A DNA stretch of 22,783 bases from a virus: IMG/VR virus record IMGVR_UViG_3300008266_000511, positions 1-22,783 of that record, one strand, 5' to 3'. The notes beneath the pieces were generated by a model, which made no database searches, had not been told where the DNA came from, and saw only the letters and a list, made by a program, of their open reading frames with translations. Below are positions 4,255-20,951 of the stretch, one piece after another. The position numbers and the translations under genes are program-made. The first letter of the stretch is position 1, and each line of letters starts with the position of its first letter.

Positions 4255-4788
4255 TTAGATTGATGGAGATTGCTGTCCAATTAATGTATTGTAGATGATA
4301 GGATCAACATCTGGAACAGGATCATTTTCCAATCCTCCCATGATGATGTCATGACCTAATCTATCAGACTTTAATACTCCAGATCCATAAGCAGAGGCCT
4401 CAGCAATTTGAAGGCCTTCACCGAATCCAAGAGCAACAATAGTCCCATCAGCTTTCTCAACCAAAGCAACAACTTCATTCTGTCCAAGCAAGTGAATCTC
4501 ATTGCGTAATTCCTTTGTATCTGATGCTAAGATCATTGTCAAAGTTTGTTCATACCAAAGAGTCCCATTTCCTTTGTTCACTCGGATTGGTGCAGTGTAG
4601 CTTGATAAATTTGATTTCAATTTATACAAGAAAGTCTCTCCAGTTACAGTCAAAGTATCAACTTCATTATTTGTGTTGACATTTGCACTGGTTACATTGC
4701 CTAATGGAAACAACAACACTGACTTGATACCACCTTTTCCATTGGTACAAGTTCTGTCATTATATCCGGCAGTCATATTACAAGCCAT
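4255..4788 (-). CDS. Predicted major tail tube (or other abundant virion) protein
   Basis: This 177-residue protein starts MACNMTAGYNDRTC and continues GGIKSVLLFPLGNV. It then alternates beta strands with YKLKSNLSSYT, LWYEQTLTMIL, a VALVEKADGTIVALGFGEGL segment and a C-terminal GHDIIMGGLENDPVP. That layout resembles the tail tube-type family I recall in Bacteroidota phages, whose members end with a GDxxGYxxxxxGxE-like segment. The gene lies immediately behind the capsid gene and is closed by a strong terminator, which suggests high expression. An A-rich start region precedes the ATG. A head decoration protein is the main alternative. Confidence 0.5.
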   Translation of the reverse strand: MACNMTAGYNDRTCTNGKGGIKSVLLFPLGNVTSANVNTNNEVDTLTVTGETFLYKLKSNLSSYTAPIRVNKGNGTLWYEQTLTMILASDTKELRNEIHLLGQNEVVALVEKADGTIVALGFGEGLQIAEASAYGSGVLKSDRLGHDIIMGGLENDPVPDVDPIIYNTLIGQQSPSI

Positions 4789-6582: not shown

Positions 6583-7475
6583 AAAATTCCTAATTCTTTT
6601 AGCTTAGCCTCTGACCATCTTTTTGCAGCAAGTCCTCCCCATAACAAATATGAGATTGTCCCACATGCAGATTGATCACTCTCATCATAATACTCCTCAG
6701 CTCTTGACAGATAAGAATACATTCTTTTGATGACAGCTACTGAGACAGTCTGACGATTAGCTAATGTTGTTGCTCTCAATCGGCCCACTCTTGTGGCACA
6801 TTTACTTCCATACTTCTGATTGAGCTCAATTCCTTTCTTGGCATTGTTGCTCACAGCCTCTGGATAGTCATTGTAGAATGTGATATATTCCTGGACCTTC
6901 TTAAGCTCTTGATATATGGCTGTGAATTCATGCTCCCACCCTTTACCTGTCTCAAGCAATTGGAAGACTCCCTCAATTGAGAATCCTGTGAACATGCCAG
7001 CCTTGGCTGCATCATAGACATCCTTATTGGTTACCTTATAACTCACAATCCAAGAGCCATCATTCTCATCCTTGAATCTTTCTGGAGCTGTGAATCCTTT
7101 TGACTCATCAATTATGTAGCTCATGATCATATAGATTCCATCAACCACTCTCTTGCTGTCATGCTCAAGATTAACATTGTTGAAATTCTCTCTCCTTGCA
7201 TAATCAAAGACAATATCCTTGATGGATGATGGAGAAAAGTTCACATAATACTCCTCACCAGTTTGAGGATCTCTTCTGAATATGGGTGTGTTCGCAGATA
7301 TAGCAACTCCAGTGATGACTTGCTCCTCATCATTAAACTGATAAGCAATCTTTTTGGAGAATGTTTCAAATGATTTCTCATGTGCAGGATTGGCCACAAG
7401 GCTGTTGAATGATACTGTTGTTTCTGGATCATCCAAATCAATGATAATATCATACAGAGGTAGTTCTCTAATCAT
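6573..7475 (-). CDS. Prohead protease, XkdF-like, with C-terminal helical domain
   Basis: This 300-residue protein carries an N-terminal domain that matches the XkdF-like putative serine protease family as I recall it: VSFNSLVANPAHEKSFETF, VITGVAISANTPIFRRD, YYVNFSPSSI, NLEHDSKR and finally GSWIVSYKVTNKD with GMFTGFSIEG. It would mature the prohead by cleaving scaffold and capsid. Residues ~203-300 are a second domain with NDYPEAVSNNAKKGIEL, ARVG/ATTLANRQTVSV-type helices, YSYLSRAEEYYD and ISYLLWGGLAAKRWSEAK. That helical module occurs in other phage head-region proteins, but its function is unknown to me. The start is 25 bp from the divergent plus-strand gene and has a CGAAC motif 18 nt upstream. 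His in NLEHD and Ser in GFSIEG are candidate catalytic residues by family pattern only. Confidence 0.7.
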   Translation of the reverse strand: MIRELPLYDIIIDLDDPETTVSFNSLVANPAHEKSFETFSKKIAYQFNDEEQVITGVAISANTPIFRRDPQTGEEYYVNFSPSSIKDIVFDYARRENFNNVNLEHDSKRVVDGIYMIMSYIIDESKGFTAPERFKDENDGSWIVSYKVTNKDVYDAAKAGMFTGFSIEGVFQLLETGKGWEHEFTAIYQELKKVQEYITFYNDYPEAVSNNAKKGIELNQKYGSKCATRVGRLRATTLANRQTVSVAVIKRMYSYLSRAEEYYDESDQSACGTISYLLWGGLAAKRWSEAKLKELGIFEQ

Positions 7476-7498
7476 ATATTATTATGTATTTTTGTTCG
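7476..7498 (-). promoter_or_regulatory. CGAAC upstream motif of protease gene, in 25-bp divergent gap
   Basis: Minus strand: TTCGAACAAAAATACATAA, with CGAAC ending 18 nt before the ATG. The whole gap to the divergent plus-strand ATG is 25 bp. On the plus strand the same stretch contains TATTTTTG (7487-7494), which fits the Bacteroidota -7 element TAnnTTTG; it would give an almost leaderless transcript for the plus-strand gene. No clear -33 element was found. Confidence 0.45.
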
Positions 7499-7500
7499 AA

Positions 7501-8148
7501 ATGAAATTTGTTTATCCATACCACAGCAAAGCTGAGTCTGACTTTGAAATCAAGCAATCAATTGCAATGGTGCTCAGTGTATATCCTGATGCAGAGATAT
7601 GGACTGTTGGCAAAGCTGTGTCTGGAATCAACAACATTCCTTGCACTCAACATAATAACATCAGAGGATGTGATGTGACCAATAGAATGCTAACCTTTGC
7701 CAAGCAAATCGGAGGAGATTTCATCTATATGAACAAAGATTTTTTTATCACTGAATCATGGCAGCCTCATGTGGCCATTAAGATGGGATCAATCATTGTC
7801 AATGATGACCATCCTCCACACACAAAGATTGCTCAATGCAATACTCTTGAATTCCTCAAGCATAACAACTTTACAGCCTACAATTTTGAGACACATACTC
7901 CATGTGTAATGAACAGCAAAAAGTTAATTGATCTATTCGACAACATCAACTGGCAGAATGATAACCATTTCATCAAATCAATCTATTGCAATGTGTACCA
8001 GGTACCTTCAAAGGATGGATTCAATTGCAAGGTCTCTGTCCCATCCATTGGCAAAGCTCAAGAATTGATTCTGCTCCAGGGATGTTTCTCCACTGGTGAT
8101 GCATTCTGGAATAAGACTTGTGTTGAATGGATTAAAAGCTTGACTTAG
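7501..8148 (+). CDS. Glycosyltransferase-like protein (GT-A/Stealth-like), only plus-strand gene
   Basis: This 215-residue protein starts MKFVYPYHSKAESDFEIKQS and continues YPDAEIWTVGKAVSG, then a Cys/His-containing strand and FAKQIGGDFIYMNKDFF at residues ~67-82. That series resembles a phage nucleotide-sugar transferase fold with a Rossmann-like N-terminus and a (N)DD-type metal motif. Here the motif reads MNKDFF, with Lys where I expect Asp, so activity is uncertain. The true start is the ATG at 7501; the longer frame to 7354 lies antisense to the protease. The 3' end overlaps the tape measure end by 17 bp in the opposite direction. Its orientation, its place between tail and head modules and its product class suggest an accessory (moron) gene. 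Whether it modifies virion or host glycan is unknown. Confidence 0.55.
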   Translation: MKFVYPYHSKAESDFEIKQSIAMVLSVYPDAEIWTVGKAVSGINNIPCTQHNNIRGCDVTNRMLTFAKQIGGDFIYMNKDFFITESWQPHVAIKMGSIIVNDDHPPHTKIAQCNTLEFLKHNNFTAYNFETHTPCVMNSKKLIDLFDNINWQNDNHFIKSIYCNVYQVPSKDGFNCKVSVPSIGKAQELILLQGCFSTGDAFWNKTCVEWIKSLT

Positions 8149-10777
8149 CCTCTTGAACTTGCACCTTGTTTTGTGTGTTCGTGATGTCAGACTCAAGAAC
8201 AACAACTTGTGATGTCATTGTCTGGAGTTGCTGTCCTTGTCCAAGTTGTGTCAAGTCAGTTGTCTGAGTATTGGTATTGGCTGTGAATGAACTTGCTCCA
8301 GCTCCACTCAATGATGCTCCTCCTCCTCCTGATAATTGTGGAGGTGTTGGTGCAGAGCCAGCTTGATACTTCTGATTCATGATGGCCATTGCCTGTGTGA
8401 TACCAACCAATGATGCTGATGCAATTGCAAAGATACCAGCTGGTGATGGAGGAGGACCAAACTGAGCAATCCCTTTCACAATTGCTGATGCTGTGTCAAT
8501 TCCAACTTGTGCCAATCTCAGAGCTTTGTCTCTTGCAAATTGTGCCTTCTTAATTTTCTCCTCTTCATTGAATGCCTTGAGCTCAATCTGATATTTTTGT
8601 TGTGCAAAGCTTTCCTCAATCTTAGCTTTTTGATCAGCTGTCAATCCTTCTCTATTAAGTTGAGCTTGTAAGTTTGCATCAAGATTGGCAAGGTCTGCCT
8701 CTCTATTTTCTGAAATCTTGTTGAGTCTTGCCTGGTCAATTTGATTGACAAACTCATTTATTTTCTTAAGCTCATCCAATCCTCTCTGAGCTCCCTCAAT
8801 TGCAGCTGTTACTCCCTTGAGAGATTCCTCTCTTGCTTTGATTGCATTCTCTTTCTCTTGGTCAACATACTTTTTATCAAGGTCAGCTTTTTTCTTTCTG
8901 AAATCCTCATTGAGTTTCAACTGATAATCAAGATATTCCTCTTCACTGATGTTGCCATTCTTTAAATTCTCAGAGTTTATCTTCTCTTGCTCTTTGTACC
9001 ACTCATCCAAATCAAGCAATTCATTCTCCTGGTCAGAATTCAAATATCTTTGCCACTTGTTTCTTAATTCTCTTTTTTTAGCCTCAGACTCAGCAATCTT
9101 ATCAAGCTCCTCCTTGCTATATTTATTGACAATGGCAATCCTTTCAGCTGCCTCTTGTTCATCAATCTGTCTCAAGAGCTCAGCATTGTTATGAGCTTGG
9201 TCCCTCATCTTATCATATTTGATGGTTGACTCAAAGAGCTCCTTCTCTTGACCTTCTTTCATTAAGTCCAGACTCAATTGGAATTGCTCATCCTCAGCTT
9301 TGATTCTATCCTCATTTGCTTTACGCTCAATCTCAGCCAATCTCTCTGCCTCTTTCTTTGCCTCCTCTCTTCTCTTCTCAGCTCTTGCCTTGGCTTTATC
9401 AGCTCTCTCCTTTGCAGCATCTGCCTCAGCTTTTGTCTCTTCAATTCTCAATACATCAAGATCATCTTTGAGTTTCTTATTCTCTTTGTATTGTTCATTC
9501 TTATTTTTCTTGACTTCCTTCAATGATTTCTCAAGGTCTTTGACTCTATCCTCATCAACATTCTTCATGCTCTTGAGCAACTTAATCTCATCCTCATATG
9601 CTGCAATCTTTTGCTTTTGCAACTCAAGGATTGCTCTTCCTGATTTCAATGCGGCCTGGAGTTTTTTCTCCTCCATGTCCTCTGTATTCTTTCCAGCTGC
9701 CTGTGCCTTTCTTATCTCAAGAGCATAGCTTTCATCAACAGCTTGTGACCTCTTTTTTTCTGCTGATATCTTTTTATTAAGTTCTTTCTCTGTTGCATCA
9801 GTCCTGTCCTTAGCATTCTTTTTTATCTTAGCTGTGACCTCATCATCTTTAACTCCAAAGAATTCCAATGCTGAGATAATTCCTTTCATCAATGGGATGA
9901 TTGGCAATAAGGCTGTGACCAATCCCTTTCCAACTGGACCAAGTTTGTCAAACCATTTAACAGCTTTTTGAACTGCCTCCTGTACCTTGTCAAAGTTAGC
10001 TATCAATAAACCAATAGCAACAACAATAGCTCCAATCCCTGTGGCAATCAATGCCAATCTGAATAACTTCATTGCTGTTGTGGATGCTGTTGTTGATGCA
10101 GCAAGACCAACATTTGCTCCTGTCTGAGCTTGTGTTGCTGCCACTCCAGCCAATGCCGGTGCAATGGAGCCAGTCATGATAAATTGCTTAGCTTTCTCAA
10201 GACCATTCCTCACTTGAATCCCAAGGATTGCCTCCTTATTCAAGTTGTTGGAAACAATACTCACAGCATTAACCAATCCCTGAACAGCTTGCAACTTGAC
10301 CATGGTTTCTGTCAATGCCTCGGACTCAACACCAGTCAATGCAACTGCTGATTGAATTCCTTGGAAGGCCGCTGCTCCAGTCTCAACTCCTTTCAATGCC
10401 GTATCAACTCCAACAAAGTCAGATGACAATGCATTTGTCTGAGCCTTTAAATCTCCAATCTCATCCTTTAAACTCGCAGCATTCCTAATGGCTTGCTGTC
10501 CAATGGGAGTCTCCATTCCAGCTTGAGCTGCAATGTTCTGATATTCCTTCATTGTCTTGGTCATCTCCCTCATGGTGAGACCACCAGCCTCAACTCTGGC
10601 ATTCAGTTCCTGGAGCTTTTGGTCAAAGGTATCAAGACCAGTTCCATCTGCTGCTGTTTGTTGTGTTGCCTTGAGATCTTGATTCAAGTCATTGACAGCT
10701 GCATCCATTGCCTGGATGTCCTGAACACTGTTGCCAGTATTGACCTTCAGTGAGAATACAACTGACTTCTCTGCCAT
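8132..10777 (-). CDS. Tail tape measure protein
   Basis: This 881-residue protein is the longest in the window. Residues 1-230 are helical and Ala/Gln-rich, ~239-262 form a strongly hydrophobic segment (LALIATGIGAIVVAIGLLIA), and ~283-305 a second one. Residues ~330-700 are a very K/E-rich coiled coil. Near 755-805 a hydrophobic Gly/Pro patch occurs (GPPPSPAGIFAIASASL, then MNQKYQAG) that I associate with Bacteroidota tape measures. Tape length scales with tail length at about 0.15 nm per residue, so a tail near 130 nm is expected. The start overlaps the previous stop (TAATG), and the end overlaps the plus-strand gene by 17 bp. CG dinucleotides are almost absent in the coiled-coil part. Function and localisation in the tail lumen are family knowledge. 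Confidence 0.85.
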   Translation of the reverse strand: MAEKSVVFSLKVNTGNSVQDIQAMDAAVNDLNQDLKATQQTAADGTGLDTFDQKLQELNARVEAGGLTMREMTKTMKEYQNIAAQAGMETPIGQQAIRNAASLKDEIGDLKAQTNALSSDFVGVDTALKGVETGAAAFQGIQSAVALTGVESEALTETMVKLQAVQGLVNAVSIVSNNLNKEAILGIQVRNGLEKAKQFIMTGSIAPALAGVAATQAQTGANVGLAASTTASTTAMKLFRLALIATGIGAIVVAIGLLIANFDKVQEAVQKAVKWFDKLGPVGKGLVTALLPIIPLMKGIISALEFFGVKDDEVTAKIKKNAKDRTDATEKELNKKISAEKKRSQAVDESYALEIRKAQAAGKNTEDMEEKKLQAALKSGRAILELQKQKIAAYEDEIKLLKSMKNVDEDRVKDLEKSLKEVKKNKNEQYKENKKLKDDLDVLRIEETKAEADAAKERADKAKARAEKRREEAKKEAERLAEIERKANEDRIKAEDEQFQLSLDLMKEGQEKELFESTIKYDKMRDQAHNNAELLRQIDEQEAAERIAIVNKYSKEELDKIAESEAKKRELRNKWQRYLNSDQENELLDLDEWYKEQEKINSENLKNGNISEEEYLDYQLKLNEDFRKKKADLDKKYVDQEKENAIKAREESLKGVTAAIEGAQRGLDELKKINEFVNQIDQARLNKISENREADLANLDANLQAQLNREGLTADQKAKIEESFAQQKYQIELKAFNEEEKIKKAQFARDKALRLAQVGIDTASAIVKGIAQFGPPPSPAGIFAIASASLVGITQAMAIMNQKYQAGSAPTPPQLSGGGGASLSGAGASSFTANTNTQTTDLTQLGQGQQLQTMTSQVVVLESDITNTQNKVQVQEAKSSF

Positions 10778-11017: not shown

Positions 11018-11785
11018 TTATGATAGTGTTGTTCCTGTTACTGTGAATGTTCTTACTGGAAAATAAGTATATGCTACTGATGATGTTTTAGTTGCTACAT
11101 TCATTACACCTATATTATTTAAAATATATGCTGATGTAGTTGCATTTAAAACTGTTGTTGAACTCCAATAAACTCTTCCTGATGAAGATAAATTAAAAGG
11201 AGAATAATTTAATAAGTTATTTTGGTCATTAGCAAAATTCATTAAATTAAATATCTCTTTCATATTTGGCAATCTCCAGCCACTGGTAAAAGTTCCAACT
11301 GAATAAGAAAGTGAATTGTCAATAGCTTGATTCCAAGTATTACCTGTTGCAATTGCAACTCTGGAAATACCCAACACAGTTGCACCATCATAAGTTGACC
11401 AATCAATCACAATGTTGTTTGTATATGTTTGTGTTCCAAGTTCTGACGTGAATCTGTTTAAATTAGAGAAAGGATTCCTCTTGGCTAATGTTGTAAAGTT
11501 TGTAGCTCTTCCAGCCTCAAGATCACCATCATCGCCTGTCCGAAAACTAGTCTGCTGCCCACTTTTGATTAGTGTTGCACCAATAGGAAATGGCTTGCAA
11601 GTTAAATTAACAGCTGCTGGATAAGTTGAGTTTGTCTCATCTCCTTCTGTCAATGTTATGTCTGGCAATATCAACGACCCTCCAGACCCAACAGTTGTGT
11701 TGTATGTGGCATCACTGTTCTGCACAGATGCATCAGCACAGGCACCTCCACCTCCACCAATTTTAAAGTTCAATGCACTTATCAT
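11018..11785 (-). CDS. Adhesin-like tail protein with DUF1566/Lcl lectin-like domain
   Basis: This 255-residue protein probably contacts the host surface. Residues ~10-63 contain a Gly run, then ASVQNSDATYNTTVGSGGSL and ILPDITLTEGD, a motif I know from Bacteroidota phage fibre ends. Residues ~145-247 match the DUF1566/Lcl domain: WNQAI, TSGWRLPNMKEI, GRVYWSSTT and a closing YFPVRTF. That family has a C-type lectin-like fold. The domain is coded by notably AT-rich DNA (about 27% GC over 11041-11280), whereas the N-terminal part reaches 50% in places, suggesting a separate origin. The ATG overlaps the previous stop (ATGA). I looked for a diversity-generating retroelement and found none. Receptor binding is inferred. 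Confidence 0.6.
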   Translation of the reverse strand: MISALNFKIGGGGGACADASVQNSDATYNTTVGSGGSLILPDITLTEGDETNSTYPAAVNLTCKPFPIGATLIKSGQQTSFRTGDDGDLEAGRATNFTTLAKRNPFSNLNRFTSELGTQTYTNNIVIDWSTYDGATVLGISRVAIATGNTWNQAIDNSLSYSVGTFTSGWRLPNMKEIFNLMNFANDQNNLLNYSPFNLSSSGRVYWSSTTVLNATTSAYILNNIGVMNVATKTSSVAYTYFPVRTFTVTGTTLS

Positions 11786-14354: not shown

Positions 14355-15568
14355 TAGTTAAGTTGTGATGTATATGTGTATGTTCTCTCCAATGTAATCT
14401 GCTCTTGAATCAAGCCATCTCTCCTCCTTGTCTTGAATTGATAGCTTGTGTTGGTAACTTTCACCGGCTCAAATGCTGTCCCATTATCAACCTCAAGATA
14501 TACTGATGGTGATTCAATCAAGCTCCTCACCAGCCATTGTTGAACACTCTGATAAATCCAGTCAGAATTCAATACCAACTGATCAGCTGCTGTCTTGGCA
14601 AAGTCAACCTTCTCACCTTGATACAATGGATATGTGTAGCTCGTATCATCCCAGACTCCTTTCTCTCTCTGATATCCATAGCTCTGTACTGTGGATGAAT
14701 CTGTTGAGACCAGTGAAAAAGTGAATGAATCCCATACTCCGTATTTATTCAACCAATGCAATCGCCTTGTCTCATATCTCTTACAATCTCTGTCAAGGTA
14801 AATTCTGAACACTTCACCTCCTCCAGAATATATTCCTCCAGATTGTGTTCCTCTTGGTGTTAATTCATAATAGTAACAGTCATCAAAGTTTGCTTGTGTG
14901 ATTGCAGTGTTGGCAATGATTGTCTGAGGAGATGCATCAACAACAGGAAATTGATTGGCTGTGAATGCCTCAGTATGTGCAACAATGATTGAGTTGTTGA
15001 CATCAAACAATCTGTATCTCACTTGAAAGAAACCAGGATCACCATTCAAGATACCCATGAATAATCTCTCATCATCAGCAAGATAAAATTTTCTATCTCT
15101 TGGCCAATCAGTCAACCATGTGACTCCACTTCCAGAGTTTGGATTGCTTGATGATACTGCATGGTCAAGGTAGTCCCAAGCAATAAAGTCCTGATGTCTC
15201 AAGGCTGCATTGAATCCATACAAAGTTGAGCTTGTGTCACTGGCTTGAATCTGGGGAGTTGGACTTCCATACTTCTCATAGACAATAATATAGTACTCAT
15301 TGATAGCCATATCATAGTAAGTCAACAGAGACCCATCCACAACCAATGGACTGGACAATGTACTCTGAACTGCCTCAGATACATCTATCCTCCCAAGAGT
15401 ATTGAATTGCCGATATACCTCTTGAGTCAATCTCAATGTGCTGTTGACATACAACTCAACAACAAAGCTGAAATTAGGTTGTGCAGTCTCATCACTGCTG
15501 AAAGTGAACACCAATGGATTGCCAGCTGGTGCAATCAGTTGTGGTTGATCATATAGTGTTATTGCCAT
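14354..15568 (-). CDS. Tail/baseplate-type beta-rich protein
   Basis: This 404-residue protein starts MAITLYDQPQLIAPAGNPL and is beta-rich and aromatic throughout. The segment RRLHWLNKYGVWDSFTFSL (near residues 270-290) is a motif I recall as conserved in Bacteroidota phage tail proteins. Another feature is SGGGEVFRIYLDRDCKRYET just before it. No enzymatic motif is visible. Its start overlaps the previous gene by 20 nt, and the next gene starts on its stop (TAATG), so the two large proteins are probably made together. Distal tail or baseplate placement is inferred from neighbours. Confidence 0.55.
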   Translation of the reverse strand: MAITLYDQPQLIAPAGNPLVFTFSSDETAQPNFSFVVELYVNSTLRLTQEVYRQFNTLGRIDVSEAVQSTLSSPLVVDGSLLTYYDMAINEYYIIVYEKYGSPTPQIQASDTSSTLYGFNAALRHQDFIAWDYLDHAVSSSNPNSGSGVTWLTDWPRDRKFYLADDERLFMGILNGDPGFFQVRYRLFDVNNSIIVAHTEAFTANQFPVVDASPQTIIANTAITQANFDDCYYYELTPRGTQSGGIYSGGGEVFRIYLDRDCKRYETRRLHWLNKYGVWDSFTFSLVSTDSSTVQSYGYQREKGVWDDTSYTYPLYQGEKVDFAKTAADQLVLNSDWIYQSVQQWLVRSLIESPSVYLEVDNGTAFEPVKVTNTSYQFKTRRRDGLIQEQITLERTYTYTSQLN

Positions 15569-16073
15569 TCTTAGTAAAATTTATTTCAAATAATAAACCA
15601 GTGAGCTCTGCCAAGTCTCTGCCTATCCTCTCAAGGACACTATCATTGATGACATTCTCAGTGATTCTCTTTGGTTGCAATCCTCGCTGCTTGATGTTGG
15701 ATGCCACAGCATATGCATGACTCATATCCAATCCTTTCCACTGACTGATGGCTGTTGCCATGTTGTGAGATACTCCAGGATAGTTGAATGAGAATTGACT
15801 GCCATAGTTGTTGGTGCCAACAGCATTGACTCCCTCATCAACAAATGGATAGTAATCTTCTGCCTCTAATCTGAATGACAGCTGTCCAGTTGGAACAGGA
15901 ATGATTGACGCTGCCAAGGCTCCTGTGTTACTCGCAACTTTCTTTGTGTAATCTCTGAACTCCTCAGCAAGTTTGTTGGATAGCTCAATGATGAATCTGT
16001 CATAAGCATTCTTTGGTTGCTCAGCATCTTGAGCTGATATTCCAAAATCATCAAGAAAATCAAACTCTGCCAT
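15549..16073 (-). CDS. Tail completion / HK97 gp10-like morphogenesis protein
   Basis: This 174-residue protein has a helical N-terminus, then SNTGALAASI, a strand with FRLEAEDYYPFVDEGVNAVG, a loop region and SHAYAVASNIKQRGLQPKRI followed by a C-terminal helix. This matches the layout of gp10-like neck or tail-completion proteins, where a Y.pfVDeG strand pair and a final rG..p helix occur. The ATG at 16073 has CGAAC 18 nt upstream. In the -1 frame the chaperone extension ends inside the first codons here. The completion role is a moderate inference. Confidence 0.55.
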   Translation of the reverse strand: MAEFDFLDDFGISAQDAEQPKNAYDRFIIELSNKLAEEFRDYTKKVASNTGALAASIIPVPTGQLSFRLEAEDYYPFVDEGVNAVGTNNYGSQFSFNYPGVSHNMATAISQWKGLDMSHAYAVASNIKQRGLQPKRITENVINDSVLERIGRDLAELTGLLFEINFTKNGNNTI

Positions 16074-16332
16074 TGCTTAATATGCGTTTATGTTCGTTCT
16101 CATCCACTATCCTAAAGTAGTTCATCCAGAATAATGTTGTCACATAAGGCTGTTGTGTAATCTTTGCCACACTGAGTCCCATTTCTTTGGATAGTCTATG
16201 TATGATAGTGGTCCAGCCAAACCACTCTGAATCTTTAAGTCCTGTTCCATCATCATCATTTCCATCCTCTGTCTCGCCATCTGAATCCCTAATATAGCGA
16301 GCTTCCGCTTGTGAGATAAGTCCAAAAAAAAA
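16060..16332 (-). CDS. -1 frame extension of tail-assembly chaperone (GT-like)
   Basis: Directly after a TAG in the -1 frame (16333-16335) comes the T9 run, and from there this frame stays open for 90 sense codons to a TGA at 16060-16062. It has no early ATG; the first in-frame ATG is at 16182. The translation looks like a genuine protein: FFFGLISQAEARYIRDSD, an acidic Gly/Asp linker, EWFGWTTIIHRLSKEMG, SVAKITQQPYVTTLFW and MNYFRIVDENEHKR. It also fills the otherwise unexplained 66-bp gap before the next gene and overlaps it by 14 bp, like other junctions here. The expected product fuses ~177 residues of the upstream frame to 88 of this one. Translational slippage, transcriptional slippage or a homopolymer sequencing error would all produce the picture. 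Confidence 0.6.
   Translation of the reverse strand, partial: FFFGLISQAEARYIRDSDGETEDGNDDDGTGLKDSEWFGWTTIIHRLSKEMGLSVAKITQQPYVTTLFWMNYFRIVDENEHKRILSNGRV
16074..16096 (-). promoter_or_regulatory. CGAAC upstream motif of completion gene
   Basis: Minus strand: AACGAACATAAACGC then CATATTAA, with CGAAC ending 18 nt before the ATG at 16073. It lies inside the -1 frame extension of the chaperone gene. It is one of five comparable sites. Confidence 0.4.
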
Positions 16333-16856
16333 CTAAAGAAATTTAGAAACTCATCACCAGGGAAATGCTCCTTGAATTCCTTGTATCTGTTGTCATTAGG
16401 ATTCAACACTCTGCCTCTGTCATCCTCTTGGCAATACTCCATCCCTTTCTCAAGATACATGATTGCCAATGCTTGACATGGATCCTGTGAGACATCCTCA
16501 ATCAGTTTCAAGTCAATGATCTGACCAGTTGACACATGAGCAAAGTTTTTCTCAAATCGATATATCTTGCCATTCACTTCAATCTCTGACTTTGGCTCCT
16601 GGTATTTATAACTCACCAACAACTGGAGCATGTGATTGGCAGCAACTTGGATGGATTGGATATCTGCTCTCTTTATCTTGTTGATTGACTCACCACTGAA
16701 TAGACTGAGCAACTGACATTGGAAGATTAACAACTGTGTGATGTCATCCTCCTTCTGTTCTTTCATTGCCTCAGCCATCATCAACCATCTGGTCATCTGC
16801 TCTGGTGTGCAGTCACTGATTTTGGTTGGTAGTTTTATGTCAAGTTGTTTCATCAT
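16140..16856 (-). CDS. Probable tail-assembly chaperone, frame-0 product
   Basis: I place the start at 16856, where ATG and the terminase TGA form an ATGA junction; the longer frame from 16910 runs 58 bp into terminase. The 238-residue product begins MMKQLDIKLP. Its middle has EVNGKIYRFEKNFAHVSTGQ followed by IIDLKLIED and CQALAIMYLEKGMEY, a layout I recall for chaperone-like proteins of Bacteroidota phages, in which a GQ.IDL segment precedes an ILY helix. At codon ~175 it meets AGT TTT TTT TTG, a T9 run. Beyond it the frame continues for 61 residues of Met/Lys/Gln-rich sequence that looks less natural than the -1 alternative. Unlike classical chaperones it is far from the tape measure. The role is inferred from pattern and the slippery site. 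Confidence 0.5.
   Translation of the reverse strand: MMKQLDIKLPTKISDCTPEQMTRWLMMAEAMKEQKEDDITQLLIFQCQLLSLFSGESINKIKRADIQSIQVAANHMLQLLVSYKYQEPKSEIEVNGKIYRFEKNFAHVSTGQIIDLKLIEDVSQDPCQALAIMYLEKGMEYCQEDDRGRVLNPNDNRYKEFKEHFPGDEFLNFFSFFLDLSHKRKLAILGIQMARQRMEMMMMEQDLKIQSGLAGPLSYIDYPKKWDSVWQRLHNSLM
16324..16332 (-). other. T9 slippery run (candidate programmed -1 frameshift site)
   Basis: The minus strand contains nine consecutive T residues, read AGT TTT TTT TTG in frame 0, which includes the canonical U UUU UUU heptamer. A weak 4-bp GC stem (AGCG/CGCT, 16296-16309) starts about 14 nt downstream. A -1 shift opens 90 codons. The run is also long enough for RNA polymerase slippage. Confidence 0.55.
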
Positions 16857-18055
16857 ACTCTCAAAGCCATATATCTTCCTCTGTTTGTGAATTCCTTTCT
16901 GCTGTGCCAAGCCAATGCAGTTGACATCACTCCATCATCATGCAATCCAGCTGGTGCAGAATAACTCACATTCCTGGTGTTCGGATTGTAAATATAGGAA
17001 AAATTATCAAGCTCATCAATCAACCTTTGCTCATTGATTATTGAGATAGCCTGTTGCTCAAATGCCACAGCCAAATCCTCAATGATGATTGGCTTTGTTT
17101 TGGAGCTTGTCACAAATGGATGGATGAGATTCTTGCACCTTGATTGGAGCATCTCATAGAACACATCACCTTGATTGTTGACCTCAACCAATGTCACAGC
17201 ATTGTATTGCTTAATCAACTCAGCAACCTTGTCAATGATCCTGGTCCATTCATCATGTCTCCATCTGTGAGCTGTCACCATCTGGCCATCTTGATTGAGG
17301 ATTGACAGAACAGTGTAGTCATCAGCTCGACCAATGTCAAGGCCAGCGAACATCTTTGGAGTCTTGGATGCTGAGCCAATGCACTCATGAACATTCTTGA
17401 ATATACCAGATGCATTGTCAATGAACTCAGCTAAGTACTCCTGTCTGAACACATAGTCAGGCAGTGACCTCTTTCTCTCATCCAACTCCCTTGGATCAAT
17501 CATTGGATTGTCATAAGAGGAATAATGAAAGTAAGCATAGCGATCATCATAGTTTGGTTGCATGCACAATCTATGAAAGTGATTCTTTCCTTTTGGTGTT
17601 GATATGAAGATAATCTTCTTTCCTTTGACCAAGACAGTTGCACTCAAGACCTCATCCCAAAGCTCTGGTCTTGTGAAGGCCATCTCATCCACAACCATAT
17701 AGTCGAAGGTGTTACCTCGGATGTTATCTGGTCTCTCACCTGAAAAGAATTCAATGGTTGAGCCAAAGCCATTCACCATCAGATCTGACCTATTGAAATT
17801 AAACAAGCCACTCTTTGCAACTGCTCTCTCAAGATCAGCAAAGACTTTCTTTCCTTGCTTATAAACTGGAGTAACCCAAGCTATGCGACAGCCTTTATCA
17901 TTGATGGCCCAGTATAGTAGTTGATTGATTCCAAGCAAGGTCTTGCCAAACTGCCTCCCAATGTTGAGAGCATAATACTTCTCATGGCCATGGTTAATGG
18001 CATCATGAATCTCTCGTTGTTTGTCATGTGGTTTATAACCTTTGACTGTACTCAT
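16853..18055 (-). CDS. Terminase large subunit
   Basis: This 400-residue protein is the packaging motor ATPase/nuclease. The ATPase domain has a Walker A motif GRQFGKT (33-39), a Walker B MVVDE (120-124) and a coupling motif FISTPKG (150-156). The RNase H-like nuclease domain shows GLDIGRADDYT (237-247, Asp239), an acidic VEVNNQGD (Glu290) and a final LHDDGV (Asp372/373). All expected catalytic residues are present, and the length is typical for a compact terminase. The start forms an ATGA overlap with the small subunit, and the stop does the same with the next gene. Terminase type (cos or headful) cannot be told from the sequence alone. Confidence 0.92.
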   Translation of the reverse strand: MSTVKGYKPHDKQREIHDAINHGHEKYYALNIGRQFGKTLLGINQLLYWAINDKGCRIAWVTPVYKQGKKVFADLERAVAKSGLFNFNRSDLMVNGFGSTIEFFSGERPDNIRGNTFDYMVVDEMAFTRPELWDEVLSATVLVKGKKIIFISTPKGKNHFHRLCMQPNYDDRYAYFHYSSYDNPMIDPRELDERKRSLPDYVFRQEYLAEFIDNASGIFKNVHECIGSASKTPKMFAGLDIGRADDYTVLSILNQDGQMVTAHRWRHDEWTRIIDKVAELIKQYNAVTLVEVNNQGDVFYEMLQSRCKNLIHPFVTSSKTKPIIIEDLAVAFEQQAISIINEQRLIDELDNFSYIYNPNTRNVSYSAPAGLHDDGVMSTALAWHSRKEFTNRGRYMALRV

Positions 18056-18476: not shown

Positions 18477-19544
18477 TTATTTACAATACTTAACATAGAA
18501 TGTGTATGGTAGTACTTTCATCTTAGTTAGAAACCACAGGAGAGCTCTGTACTTTTTAAAGTCATATCTATCAAATTCTGACCTGTCTCTCTTTCTGATG
18601 TTCACCAGTCTCAGCATCCTTTCTGCACTTGAGCCAAGTTTAGTGATGTCAAACTCTGACTTGATGTTGAACTGCTCCATGGCTTGCTCTTTGGTTAGCT
18701 TGCCACTTCTCACTTGAGCTGCAAGATAAACAATCCGTTTGTCAATGGCAAACTTCTCTGGTAATAGGAATGAGCCAACAAATTCAGTGTAAACATTCTC
18801 ACAATGCTTGCCACCATAATCTTGCCAGTTGATGAGTCTCTTCATTTCAGCCTCCATTGTATCTCTGTCAAATCCATAGTGAAATGGTCTCACATTCTTG
18901 ATACCCATTGCAGCATAGAATAGCTGGTCTTTGAAAGTGAATAGAGGATAGTTCTGGAGTCTGAGTCCAGAGTATTTGTTGTAAACTGATTGGATATACT
19001 TAGCATCCATATAAGTCCATCCCTTTGGTGTTGAGCCTTCAGTTCTGAAATCATGACCATTGAGAATATACTTGATGTTGTACTTGAATGCTGTGTCATA
19101 CATCAGCTTTGTCATTGCTATGTCGTTTGGAATATCAGCATCTGGAGTCCCAGCCCAAAGGAATGCATCATTGAGTCTATCATACTCCTCCTTATTCACA
19201 GTATATGTGATTGAGTCAACTCCGAGAATCTTCACCAATTGACTCATGTTGTGAACAGCCTCTGGAGCATTCCAGTGATTGTCAAAGTGAATGACCAATG
19301 GCTTGAGATTCCAATACTTGACAGCTGTGTATAGTAGAGTTGATGAGTCAATCCCTCCAGAGATACCCATGATGCAGTCATAGGTCTTGTCTTGACCTTT
19401 TGCTTTTATCTCTCTGATGAGATGCTTAAGCTCATGAGGATTGGCTTGTCTCTCAAGGTCATCATGTAGGTCACAGTATTCGCATTGTTCAGGACCAATT
19501 GTTGCAATGGTCTCATCAAATAAACAGCGTTGACATTCTTTCAT
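18477..19544 (-). CDS. N-acetyl sugar amidotransferase (WbpG/PseA-type)
   Basis: This 355-residue protein is an ATP-pyrophosphatase-type amidotransferase. I set the start at 19544 because MKECQRCLFDETI is the family's opening; the frame could extend 16 codons further. Four cysteines in two CxxC pairs (4, 7, 21, 24) suggest a zinc site, and SGGIDSS (62-68) is the PP-loop that adenylates the substrate. Next comes VIHFDNHWN, typical of the family. Known members convert an acetamido sugar to an acetamidino form in O-antigen or flagellar glycan, using ammonia from a HisH/HisF-like partner. No such partner is in this window, so it would borrow one from the host or use free ammonia. The start overlaps the GT-B gene end by 29 bp, making an operon of three glycan genes. 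Substrate is unknown. Confidence 0.8.
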   Translation of the reverse strand: MKECQRCLFDETIATIGPEQCEYCDLHDDLERQANPHELKHLIREIKAKGQDKTYDCIMGISGGIDSSTLLYTAVKYWNLKPLVIHFDNHWNAPEAVHNMSQLVKILGVDSITYTVNKEEYDRLNDAFLWAGTPDADIPNDIAMTKLMYDTAFKYNIKYILNGHDFRTEGSTPKGWTYMDAKYIQSVYNKYSGLRLQNYPLFTFKDQLFYAAMGIKNVRPFHYGFDRDTMEAEMKRLINWQDYGGKHCENVYTEFVGSFLLPEKFAIDKRIVYLAAQVRSGKLTKEQAMEQFNIKSEFDITKLGSSAERMLRLVNIRKRDRSEFDRYDFKKYRALLWFLTKMKVLPYTFYVKYCK

Positions 19545-20253
19545 AGTTAACAAAGTTATGATAAATTTTACTAATATACGAATTCTCAGCATGCCGAGTT
19601 GAATACTCTCTCATGATTGACTGACAGATATCATCCACTGATTGCCAAGGAATTGATGCTGGAAGATCACCATTATAAATTGACCTCCTCCCCATGAGAC
19701 CCATCTCAATGTTGGTGTTTGGACAGCCATCATGAGGAGTTAGTCTGAGATTGAGAAAGCAATGAGAGTAAACTTGATAGAGCTCTGACTTTGTGAATGT
19801 ATCATGACCAGCTCTGATGATTGGAATGTTGATTCTTTCTCTTATTTCGTTGATAAGTTGCTCACCATAATACTCTGGAGCATTACCAGAATACCAGAAT
19901 ATCTTGTCACCATTTGAGATACAAGGCCACTGATCAGGATTGACTGCATTGATTGGACACCAAATTGCCTCAATACCTTTGGATGCAAGAGTCTCAAGTA
20001 CTTGTTGACTCACAGCAATGTTGACTGAGTCCTTTACAAACTTTATCCAATCCTCTGGAAGATCCTTGGCATCTGATCCAAACCAAACAATTGTGCTCCC
20101 TCCGAGATGTGTTGCCAATGTCTCAAGATCTTCCTGTCTATACATGCCCATGAACACTGTGTCCCATGTTGCAACATTGTATGGTGTTAAATTGTATTTT
20201 TCAATGAGTCCTTTGTCAAGTCCAGCAAGTGATTCTGAGATATGTGCTTGCAT
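19516..20253 (-). CDS. GT-B-like glycosyltransferase
   Basis: This 245-residue protein is shorter than full GT-B enzymes (~350+). It contains VFMGMYRQEDLETLATHLGG (33-52), a strand VWFGSDAKDLPEDW (56-69), WCPINAVNPDQW (98-109), FWYSGNAPEYYG, then IPIIRAGHD. The C-terminal donor-site segment LRLTPHDGCPNTNIEMG (169-185) with its Glu followed by GRRSIYNGDLP is typical of GT-B transferases. It probably moves an activated sugar. The start codon overlaps the preceding gene's end, and CGAAC lies 16 nt upstream. It lies between a GT-A-like enzyme and a sugar amidotransferase, which strengthens the glycan role. Donor and acceptor are unknown. Confidence 0.65.
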   Translation of the reverse strand: MQAHISESLAGLDKGLIEKYNLTPYNVATWDTVFMGMYRQEDLETLATHLGGSTIVWFGSDAKDLPEDWIKFVKDSVNIAVSQQVLETLASKGIEAIWCPINAVNPDQWPCISNGDKIFWYSGNAPEYYGEQLINEIRERINIPIIRAGHDTFTKSELYQVYSHCFLNLRLTPHDGCPNTNIEMGLMGRRSIYNGDLPASIPWQSVDDICQSIMREYSTRHAENSYISKIYHNFVNYERMSTLFI

Positions 20254-20951
20254 TATAATAGTTGTTTAAGTTCGTTAAATTCTTTCTCCAGGATTGAGAC
20301 ATCACATCTCACTGACTTGAGAGCTCCTGACCAATGGTCAGTAAACTTATGCTTGTTATTCCATTTGTTTGTTGAGATGGATAGTAGTTGAACTGAGTTG
20401 TCACATTCCAAGATTCCAATGTCTTGATTTGATTTGATTGCCTTGAGCCACATGGACCAATCAAGACCAGAGCTGAGTTGTGGATTGAATGGAGTCCAGT
20501 TGATAGTCTCAAGGAATTCTCTGTTAAGAAAGCGACCAATGCCTATTGGCTCATTCTTTCTCATCGAGTCATGATATCCTTTCCAATGCACCAGTCTGAT
20601 ATGGTCAGAGACATCAGCAAAGTGACAGCCAAGCATTCCAATCATTCCAAAGTCTTTGCTGTGCTCCTTGCATCTTTGAATGTATCCATCACTGCACCAA
20701 TCAGATGAGCCCATAAATATCACAGCATCTGCATTGTAATTCTTTGATGCGTTAAATCCTTTGTTCCATTTGTAGCCAAGAGGATCATTGTCAATGGAGA
20801 TAAATTCAACATCCATTTGCTTTGCAATATCCATAGCCTCTCTCTCATGCCCTAAAACAATCGGTGTGACTCCTTGCCTCTTAAGTCTTGAGATAGTTAA
20901 TCTGACAAGAGGAAATCGACCAAATACAGGTATCGGAGCTGTGACTATCAT
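20253..20951 (-). CDS. GT-A-like (family 2-like) glycosyltransferase
   Basis: This 232-residue protein opens MIVTAPIPVFGRFPLVRLTI, the type of start seen in GT-A enzymes that bind a nucleotide sugar. PLGYKWNKGFNASK (57-70) and DAVIFMGSSDW (75-85) resemble the substrate-binding strand and metal-motif strand of family 2; the usual DxD reads SSD here. A later NREFLETINWTPFNP segment and GLDWSMWLKAI helix fit an acceptor domain. No membrane segment is seen, so it is cytosolic. It is the first gene of the glycan island; its start overlaps the previous stop (ATGA). Specificity cannot be read. Confidence 0.65.
   Translation of the reverse strand: MIVTAPIPVFGRFPLVRLTISRLKRQGVTPIVLGHEREAMDIAKQMDVEFISIDNDPLGYKWNKGFNASKNYNADAVIFMGSSDWCSDGYIQRCKEHSKDFGMIGMLGCHFADVSDHIRLVHWKGYHDSMRKNEPIGIGRFLNREFLETINWTPFNPQLSSGLDWSMWLKAIKSNQDIGILECDNSVQLLSISTNKWNNKHKFTDHWSGALKSVRCDVSILEKEFNELKQLL
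20254..20274 (-). promoter_or_regulatory. CGAAC upstream motif of GT-B-like gene
   Basis: Minus strand: AACGAACTTAAACAAC then TATTATAA, with CGAAC ending 16 nt before the ATG at 20253. It is contained in the 3' end of the GT-A-like gene. It is one of five comparable sites. Confidence 0.4.

Follow-up and report, generated by a model that had tools for sequence, protein, structure and literature searches.

A conserved T9 run links two reading frames of a probable tail-assembly chaperone gene in a widespread group of phages

A gene on the minus strand of the viral DNA analysed here (the window: all 22,783 nucleotides of IMG/VR record IMGVR_UViG_3300008266_000511) carries a run of nine Ts that appears to connect two overlapping reading frames. 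Judged from its relatives, this T9 is a real and deeply conserved –1 recoding site, and a programmed –1 change of reading frame at it is strongly supported. We suggest, with a probability of about 0.68, that the gene directs two proteins from one start by slippage at T9 and that these act as a tail-assembly chaperone pair.

Organization of the gene in the window

By direct reading of the sequence, frame 0 starts with the ATG at 16853 and its stop ends at 16140 (16140–16853, minus strand; 237 aa plus stop). It is an open reading frame with 169 family relatives and would give the short, gpG-like product. The minus-strand T9 described in the earlier note was located, also by direct reading, at 16332–16324, as AGT TTT TTT TTG with an in-frame T_TTT_TTT inside. 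From this run the –1 frame continues to a TGA at 16062–16060 (16060–16332, minus strand) and is predicted to encode a short helix followed by an acidic linker and, at the C-terminus, a small helical domain. The 90 open sense codons without an early ATG that had been counted there hold, and the computed fusion is 264 aa, against the earlier estimate of about 265 residues. The –1 frame also fills the 66-bp gap behind frame 0 and ends, as had been noticed, in a short overlap (14 nt) with the downstream gene, whose start is at 16073. Both frames are open over 16140–16323 (minus strand), where the first ~28 codons are doubly constrained and the remainder is mainly constrained in –1. A TAG directly 5′ of T9, to which the earlier note drew attention, is present in the window; it is not conserved among relatives, and in many of them the –1 frame stays open for 6–39 codons further 5′ of T9. 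No other A/T run in the window reaches nine, and the same is true of seven long relatives.

Conservation of T9 in two diverged families

Relatives were taken from IMG/VR searches (hundreds of matches), and duplicates were removed before counting. In 169/169 non-redundant members of the window's family, T9 is present exactly and in identical phase, and the –1 domain always lies in the –1 frame; an earlier tally of T9 together with the –1 domain gave 122/122. Since the sequences are kin, such counts do not represent independent events, and the lowest identity inside the family is ~45%. We found no substitutions within T9 in 104 aligned sequences. The Phe codons of the slip site are TTT in 244/244 cases versus 548/1233 (44%) elsewhere in the same genes. 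The codon 5′ of T9 is AGT, GGT, GCT or AAT, T-ended in all, and a slippery heptamer of the X_XXY_YYZ type, in frame, T_TTT_TTT, is present in every member.

The frame-0 product gave a usable AlphaFold2 model (mean pLDDT 78). A Foldseek search with it matched uncharacterised phage proteins, including those of Nonlabens phage P12024S and Flavobacterium phage 6H, and the P12024S match (175 aa) was assigned to gene 38 from its length. Gene 38 follows the terminase gene and carries T9 as CTT TTT TTT TAT, and the –1 frame reads on from T9 without a stop as far as the end of gene 39, which is annotated separately. The arrangement is the same in phage P12024L. IMG/VR relatives of gene 38 make up a second family, in which 76/77 members carry T9, 1/77 carries T10 and the domain is always in –1. 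The N-domains of both families are homologous (hhalign profile-profile comparison, 96%, E 1.3e–9), and their –1 C-domains give a weak profile match (P 0.003). Genes 38/39 resemble the window gene in having a homologous N-domain, a post-terminase place, T9 and a –1 domain, but differ in sequence (~13–20% in aligned parts) and are annotated as two unrelated hypothetical proteins. PHROGs likewise splits them (L224:23136-23830) into the unconnected phrog_32199 and phrog_38404. In the lone T10 member (L243:2435-3162), a flanking C to T change (Leu to Phe) extends the run and leaves the frame relation intact.

Selection on both frames

Substitution patterns change at the slip site. Before it, parsimony gave 2.3/0.8/9.4 changes per site at frame-0 positions 1/2/3, the pattern of single coding in frame 0. 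The first 28 codons past the slip gave 2.2/3.0/5.5, with both frames constrained; the following 32 codons gave 1.6/4.5/2.9, with constraint mainly on –1, of which position 3 corresponds to frame-0 position 2; and beyond the frame-0 stop the values were 1.1/6.3/2.2, with constraint on –1 only. In the most divergent members the –1 domain is conserved but distal frame 0 is not. The earlier view that the –1 translation is the more protein-like of the two is borne out for the distal part and overstates the case for the first ~28 codons, where both frames code. In simulations with frame-0 amino acids and codon usage fixed, the –1 frame was open by chance in 0.1–2% per clade.

These data bear on two other explanations. 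A miscounted homopolymer would look identical in any single genome, and the earlier note had kept a sequencing error in view. However, T9 occurs exactly in 245/246 non-redundant relatives from many independent assemblies, isolates P12024S and P12024L included; the one T10 sequence keeps the frame relation; and purifying selection acts on both frames. The pattern named in advance as contradictory, with homologues keeping frame 0 to its end and the –1 frame unconserved, is the opposite of what was found, as the –1 frame is conserved and conservation of frame 0 past the slip is limited to roughly the first 20–28 codons. Constancy of T9 and selection in both frames already refute an error in sequencing or assembly, or a decaying gene, and we give this reading practically no credence. 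It is also highly improbable that the –1 frame constitutes an independent gene and has a start of its own, as the annotation of P12024S gene 39, which opens with an ATG, would have it. In the window's family, ATG, GTG and TTG are absent from the –1 frame ahead of the conserved Trp of the domain in 121/122 members, so an internal start was rejected. In addition, selection on –1 starts at T9, and in P12024S the –1 frame is open all the way back to its T9. Fusion at T9 is therefore the only evident route of expression for the –1 domain.

Single-frame homologues

Homologues in which the protein is encoded in one frame (259–301 aa) were found in Duneviridae (23T, laban6-1, Ingeline), Polaribacter phage Leef and Microcystis phage Mea-Yong924-1. 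Their profile aligns with the entire window fusion (P 7e–4), with the N-domain of the second family (E 3.8e–9) and with its –1 domain (P 1.6e–4). By these profile alignments, the –1 fusion therefore equals a protein that is complete and two-domain elsewhere. Like the fusion, the single-frame homologues (phrog_25418 in Duneviridae) have the N-domain followed by the C-domain; unlike the window gene, they use one frame, with a junction that has no slip site. A mirror-image slip, in which a heptamer would lead to a short product, was sought in them, and there was none at the junction and nothing shared. In Ingeline the gene lies three genes before the tape measure gene. Taken together, conservation of the slip site, selection on both frames and the correspondence between the fusion and a protein made in one frame elsewhere emerge from the alignments themselves. 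The homologue in phage 6H (L225:10355-10927) is 191 aa versus 293 aa in 23T (L227:6001-6882), an indel relative to the 23T gene having brought its end forward; the remainder of the frame persists downstream, and the difference may be either real or an error of the 6H record.

Ribosome or RNA polymerase as the slipping agent

The simplest slip would be one by the P- and A-site tRNA-Phe on T_TTT_TTT, and nearly as likely is the addition of an extra U by RNA polymerase. The same two products would result if reiterative transcription on T9 added one U and ribosomes then read –1, a possibility to which we assign somewhat less than an even chance. Nine-A/T runs make bacterial RNA polymerase slip (PMC5009743), and runs of eight or more are typical of transcriptional slippage (PMC3711429); an A/T run of this size, about nine, sits at the frame junction here. 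Polymerase slippage is also suggested by the nine Ts in 245/246 sequences, though seven suffice for a ribosomal slip, and by the fact that T9 is reached via different flanking codons in the two diverged families. Furthermore, no downstream RNA structure is evident: a stimulatory stem-loop or pseudoknot after T9 was sought in single-sequence folds (70 nt, 25 divergent members), and the structures were inconsistent. On the other hand, the flanking Ts are nearly as well explained by the coding needs of two frames. The phase of T9 does not discriminate, since an in-frame T_TTT_TTT sits in any T9, so ribosomal –1 slippage would be straightforward too. Finally, known phage tail chaperones rely on ribosomal shifts (PMC5009743). 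Because of this last point we slightly prefer the ribosome, the two agents being close to even.

A bacterial gene expressed by transcriptional slippage on an A9/T9-type run is Thermus dnaX (reviewed in PMC5009743). Genes of this type share with the window gene the nine-A/T homopolymer and products in two frames; their proteins are different, their mRNA is expected to be heterogeneous at the run, and for the window gene the polymerase is a candidate slipping agent. Tentatively, one may picture a large uncharacterised group of phages in which an invariant T9 makes RNA polymerase, rather than the ribosome, slip and so yields a tail chaperone pair, and whose single-frame relatives lost, or never had, the slip.

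Proposed role in tail assembly

In the proposed scheme, the majority of readings would keep frame 0 and give the 237-aa protein, and a minority would enter –1 at T9 and give the 264-aa protein, in which an acidic linker carries a small helical domain at the C-terminus. On the model of lambda gpG/gpGT, coating of the tape measure protein would fall to the shared N-domain and recruitment of tail-tube subunits to the rare C-terminal domain. Production of the fusion, the long:short ratio and the chaperone role are inferred. The chaperone reading draws on this resemblance in expression scheme (described in PMC5009743), on the fact that recoding in tailed phages usually concerns tail chaperones (PMC10885494), on the position of the gene in the tail module and on the lack of another recognised candidate in the window. 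The gene is thus a probable tail assembly chaperone.

Like gpG/gpGT, the window gene has one start, two predicted products, a –1 slip late in the first frame, a rare C-terminal domain and a place in the tail module, here read from sequence alone. Chaperones of the lambda type bind tape measure and tail tube proteins, are missing from the virion and have a long form that makes up a few percent of the product. In contrast to gpG/gpGT, the window gene has no detectable sequence homology to them, a much larger first product and T9 as slip site, and its place is behind terminase, with six genes between it and the tape measure gene. Searches of Pfam, PHROG, PDB and INPHARED with the window protein or family profiles gave nothing useful, and no named chaperone family, Pfam family or solved structure matching the gene was found. 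The frame-0 and –1 parts were folded separately. Modelled alone, the –1 domain (mean pLDDT 65, modest) is predicted as a helix joined by a disordered acidic linker to a small helical domain, and a fold search with it gave no significant match. Among the non-significant BFVD matches of the fold search with the frame-0 model were two annotated tail assembly chaperones (E 0.33 and 1.1). Of the earlier proposal of a probable tail-assembly chaperone with a –1 shift, the recoding is strongly supported and the identity is likely, but named family matches are missing and the tape measure gene is not adjacent. Apart from these two points, the weak homology of the C-domains between families counts against a chaperone, and the single-frame homologues imply that two product lengths are not needed in every relative, which counts against a chaperone pair.

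Several of the same observations would fit recoding in the service of a different function, such as head-tail joining by a protein that also has a minor extended form. The gene follows terminase and lies beside short joining-type genes, away from the tape measure gene; it has no chaperone homology, and single-frame homologues exist. We regard such a function as rather unlikely: a tail-module gene with two forms, the rare one extended at the C-terminus, reproduces the gpG/gpGT scheme, and no competing chaperone candidate was recognised in the window.

The recoded family is widespread, occurring in phage contigs from fresh and marine waters as well as in the cultured Nonlabens phages P12024S and P12024L, and databases break it into short unknown ORFs. 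Its slip-bearing and slip-free relatives provide a natural experiment on whether both product lengths are required for tail assembly, and the family also allows the question of ribosome or polymerase to be asked directly. For phage annotation, the recoded gene is a pointer to a probable tail chaperone where none is named.

Gene neighbourhood

The gene for the terminase large subunit (16853–18055, minus strand; phrog_2, E 1e–45, and gene order) lies directly upstream, as in P12024S. The next gene downstream (15549–16073, minus strand; 174 aa), which the –1 frame overlaps, may encode a tail-joining protein; no named family was found for it. The tape measure protein, the proposed partner of the short product, is encoded at 8132–10777 (minus strand; phrog_1293, E 1e–4). 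A possible tail tube protein, the putative partner of the –1 domain, is encoded at 4255–4788 (minus strand); it belongs to phrog_19091, a family of unknown function, and is homologous to P12024S gene 3. The place right after terminase, with the tape measure as the seventh gene on, agrees with the earlier description: six genes intervene, where a lambda-type chaperone gene would lie directly before the tape measure gene. Members of the group share the order terminase, recoded gene, short joining-type genes, two large tail genes and tape measure, and P12024S largely keeps it. Thus, displacement from the tape measure gene is a property of this phage group.

Other genes of the window also drew our attention. 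An opposite-strand ORF (7354–8148, plus strand), possibly glycosyltransferase-like by its appearance, lies between the tape measure and protease genes and recurs in three relatives (L206, L164 and L091). Beside the small terminase gene, the region 18477–20951 (minus strand) encodes an apparent sugar amidotransferase (CxxC, ATP-binding SGGxDS) and glycosyltransferases, and for two of these three genes similar-looking ORFs are present in L206 and L091. A 255-aa protein encoded at 11018–11785 (minus strand) contains an Lcl C-terminal domain (Pfam PF07603) and is probably part of a tail fibre or a receptor-binding structure.
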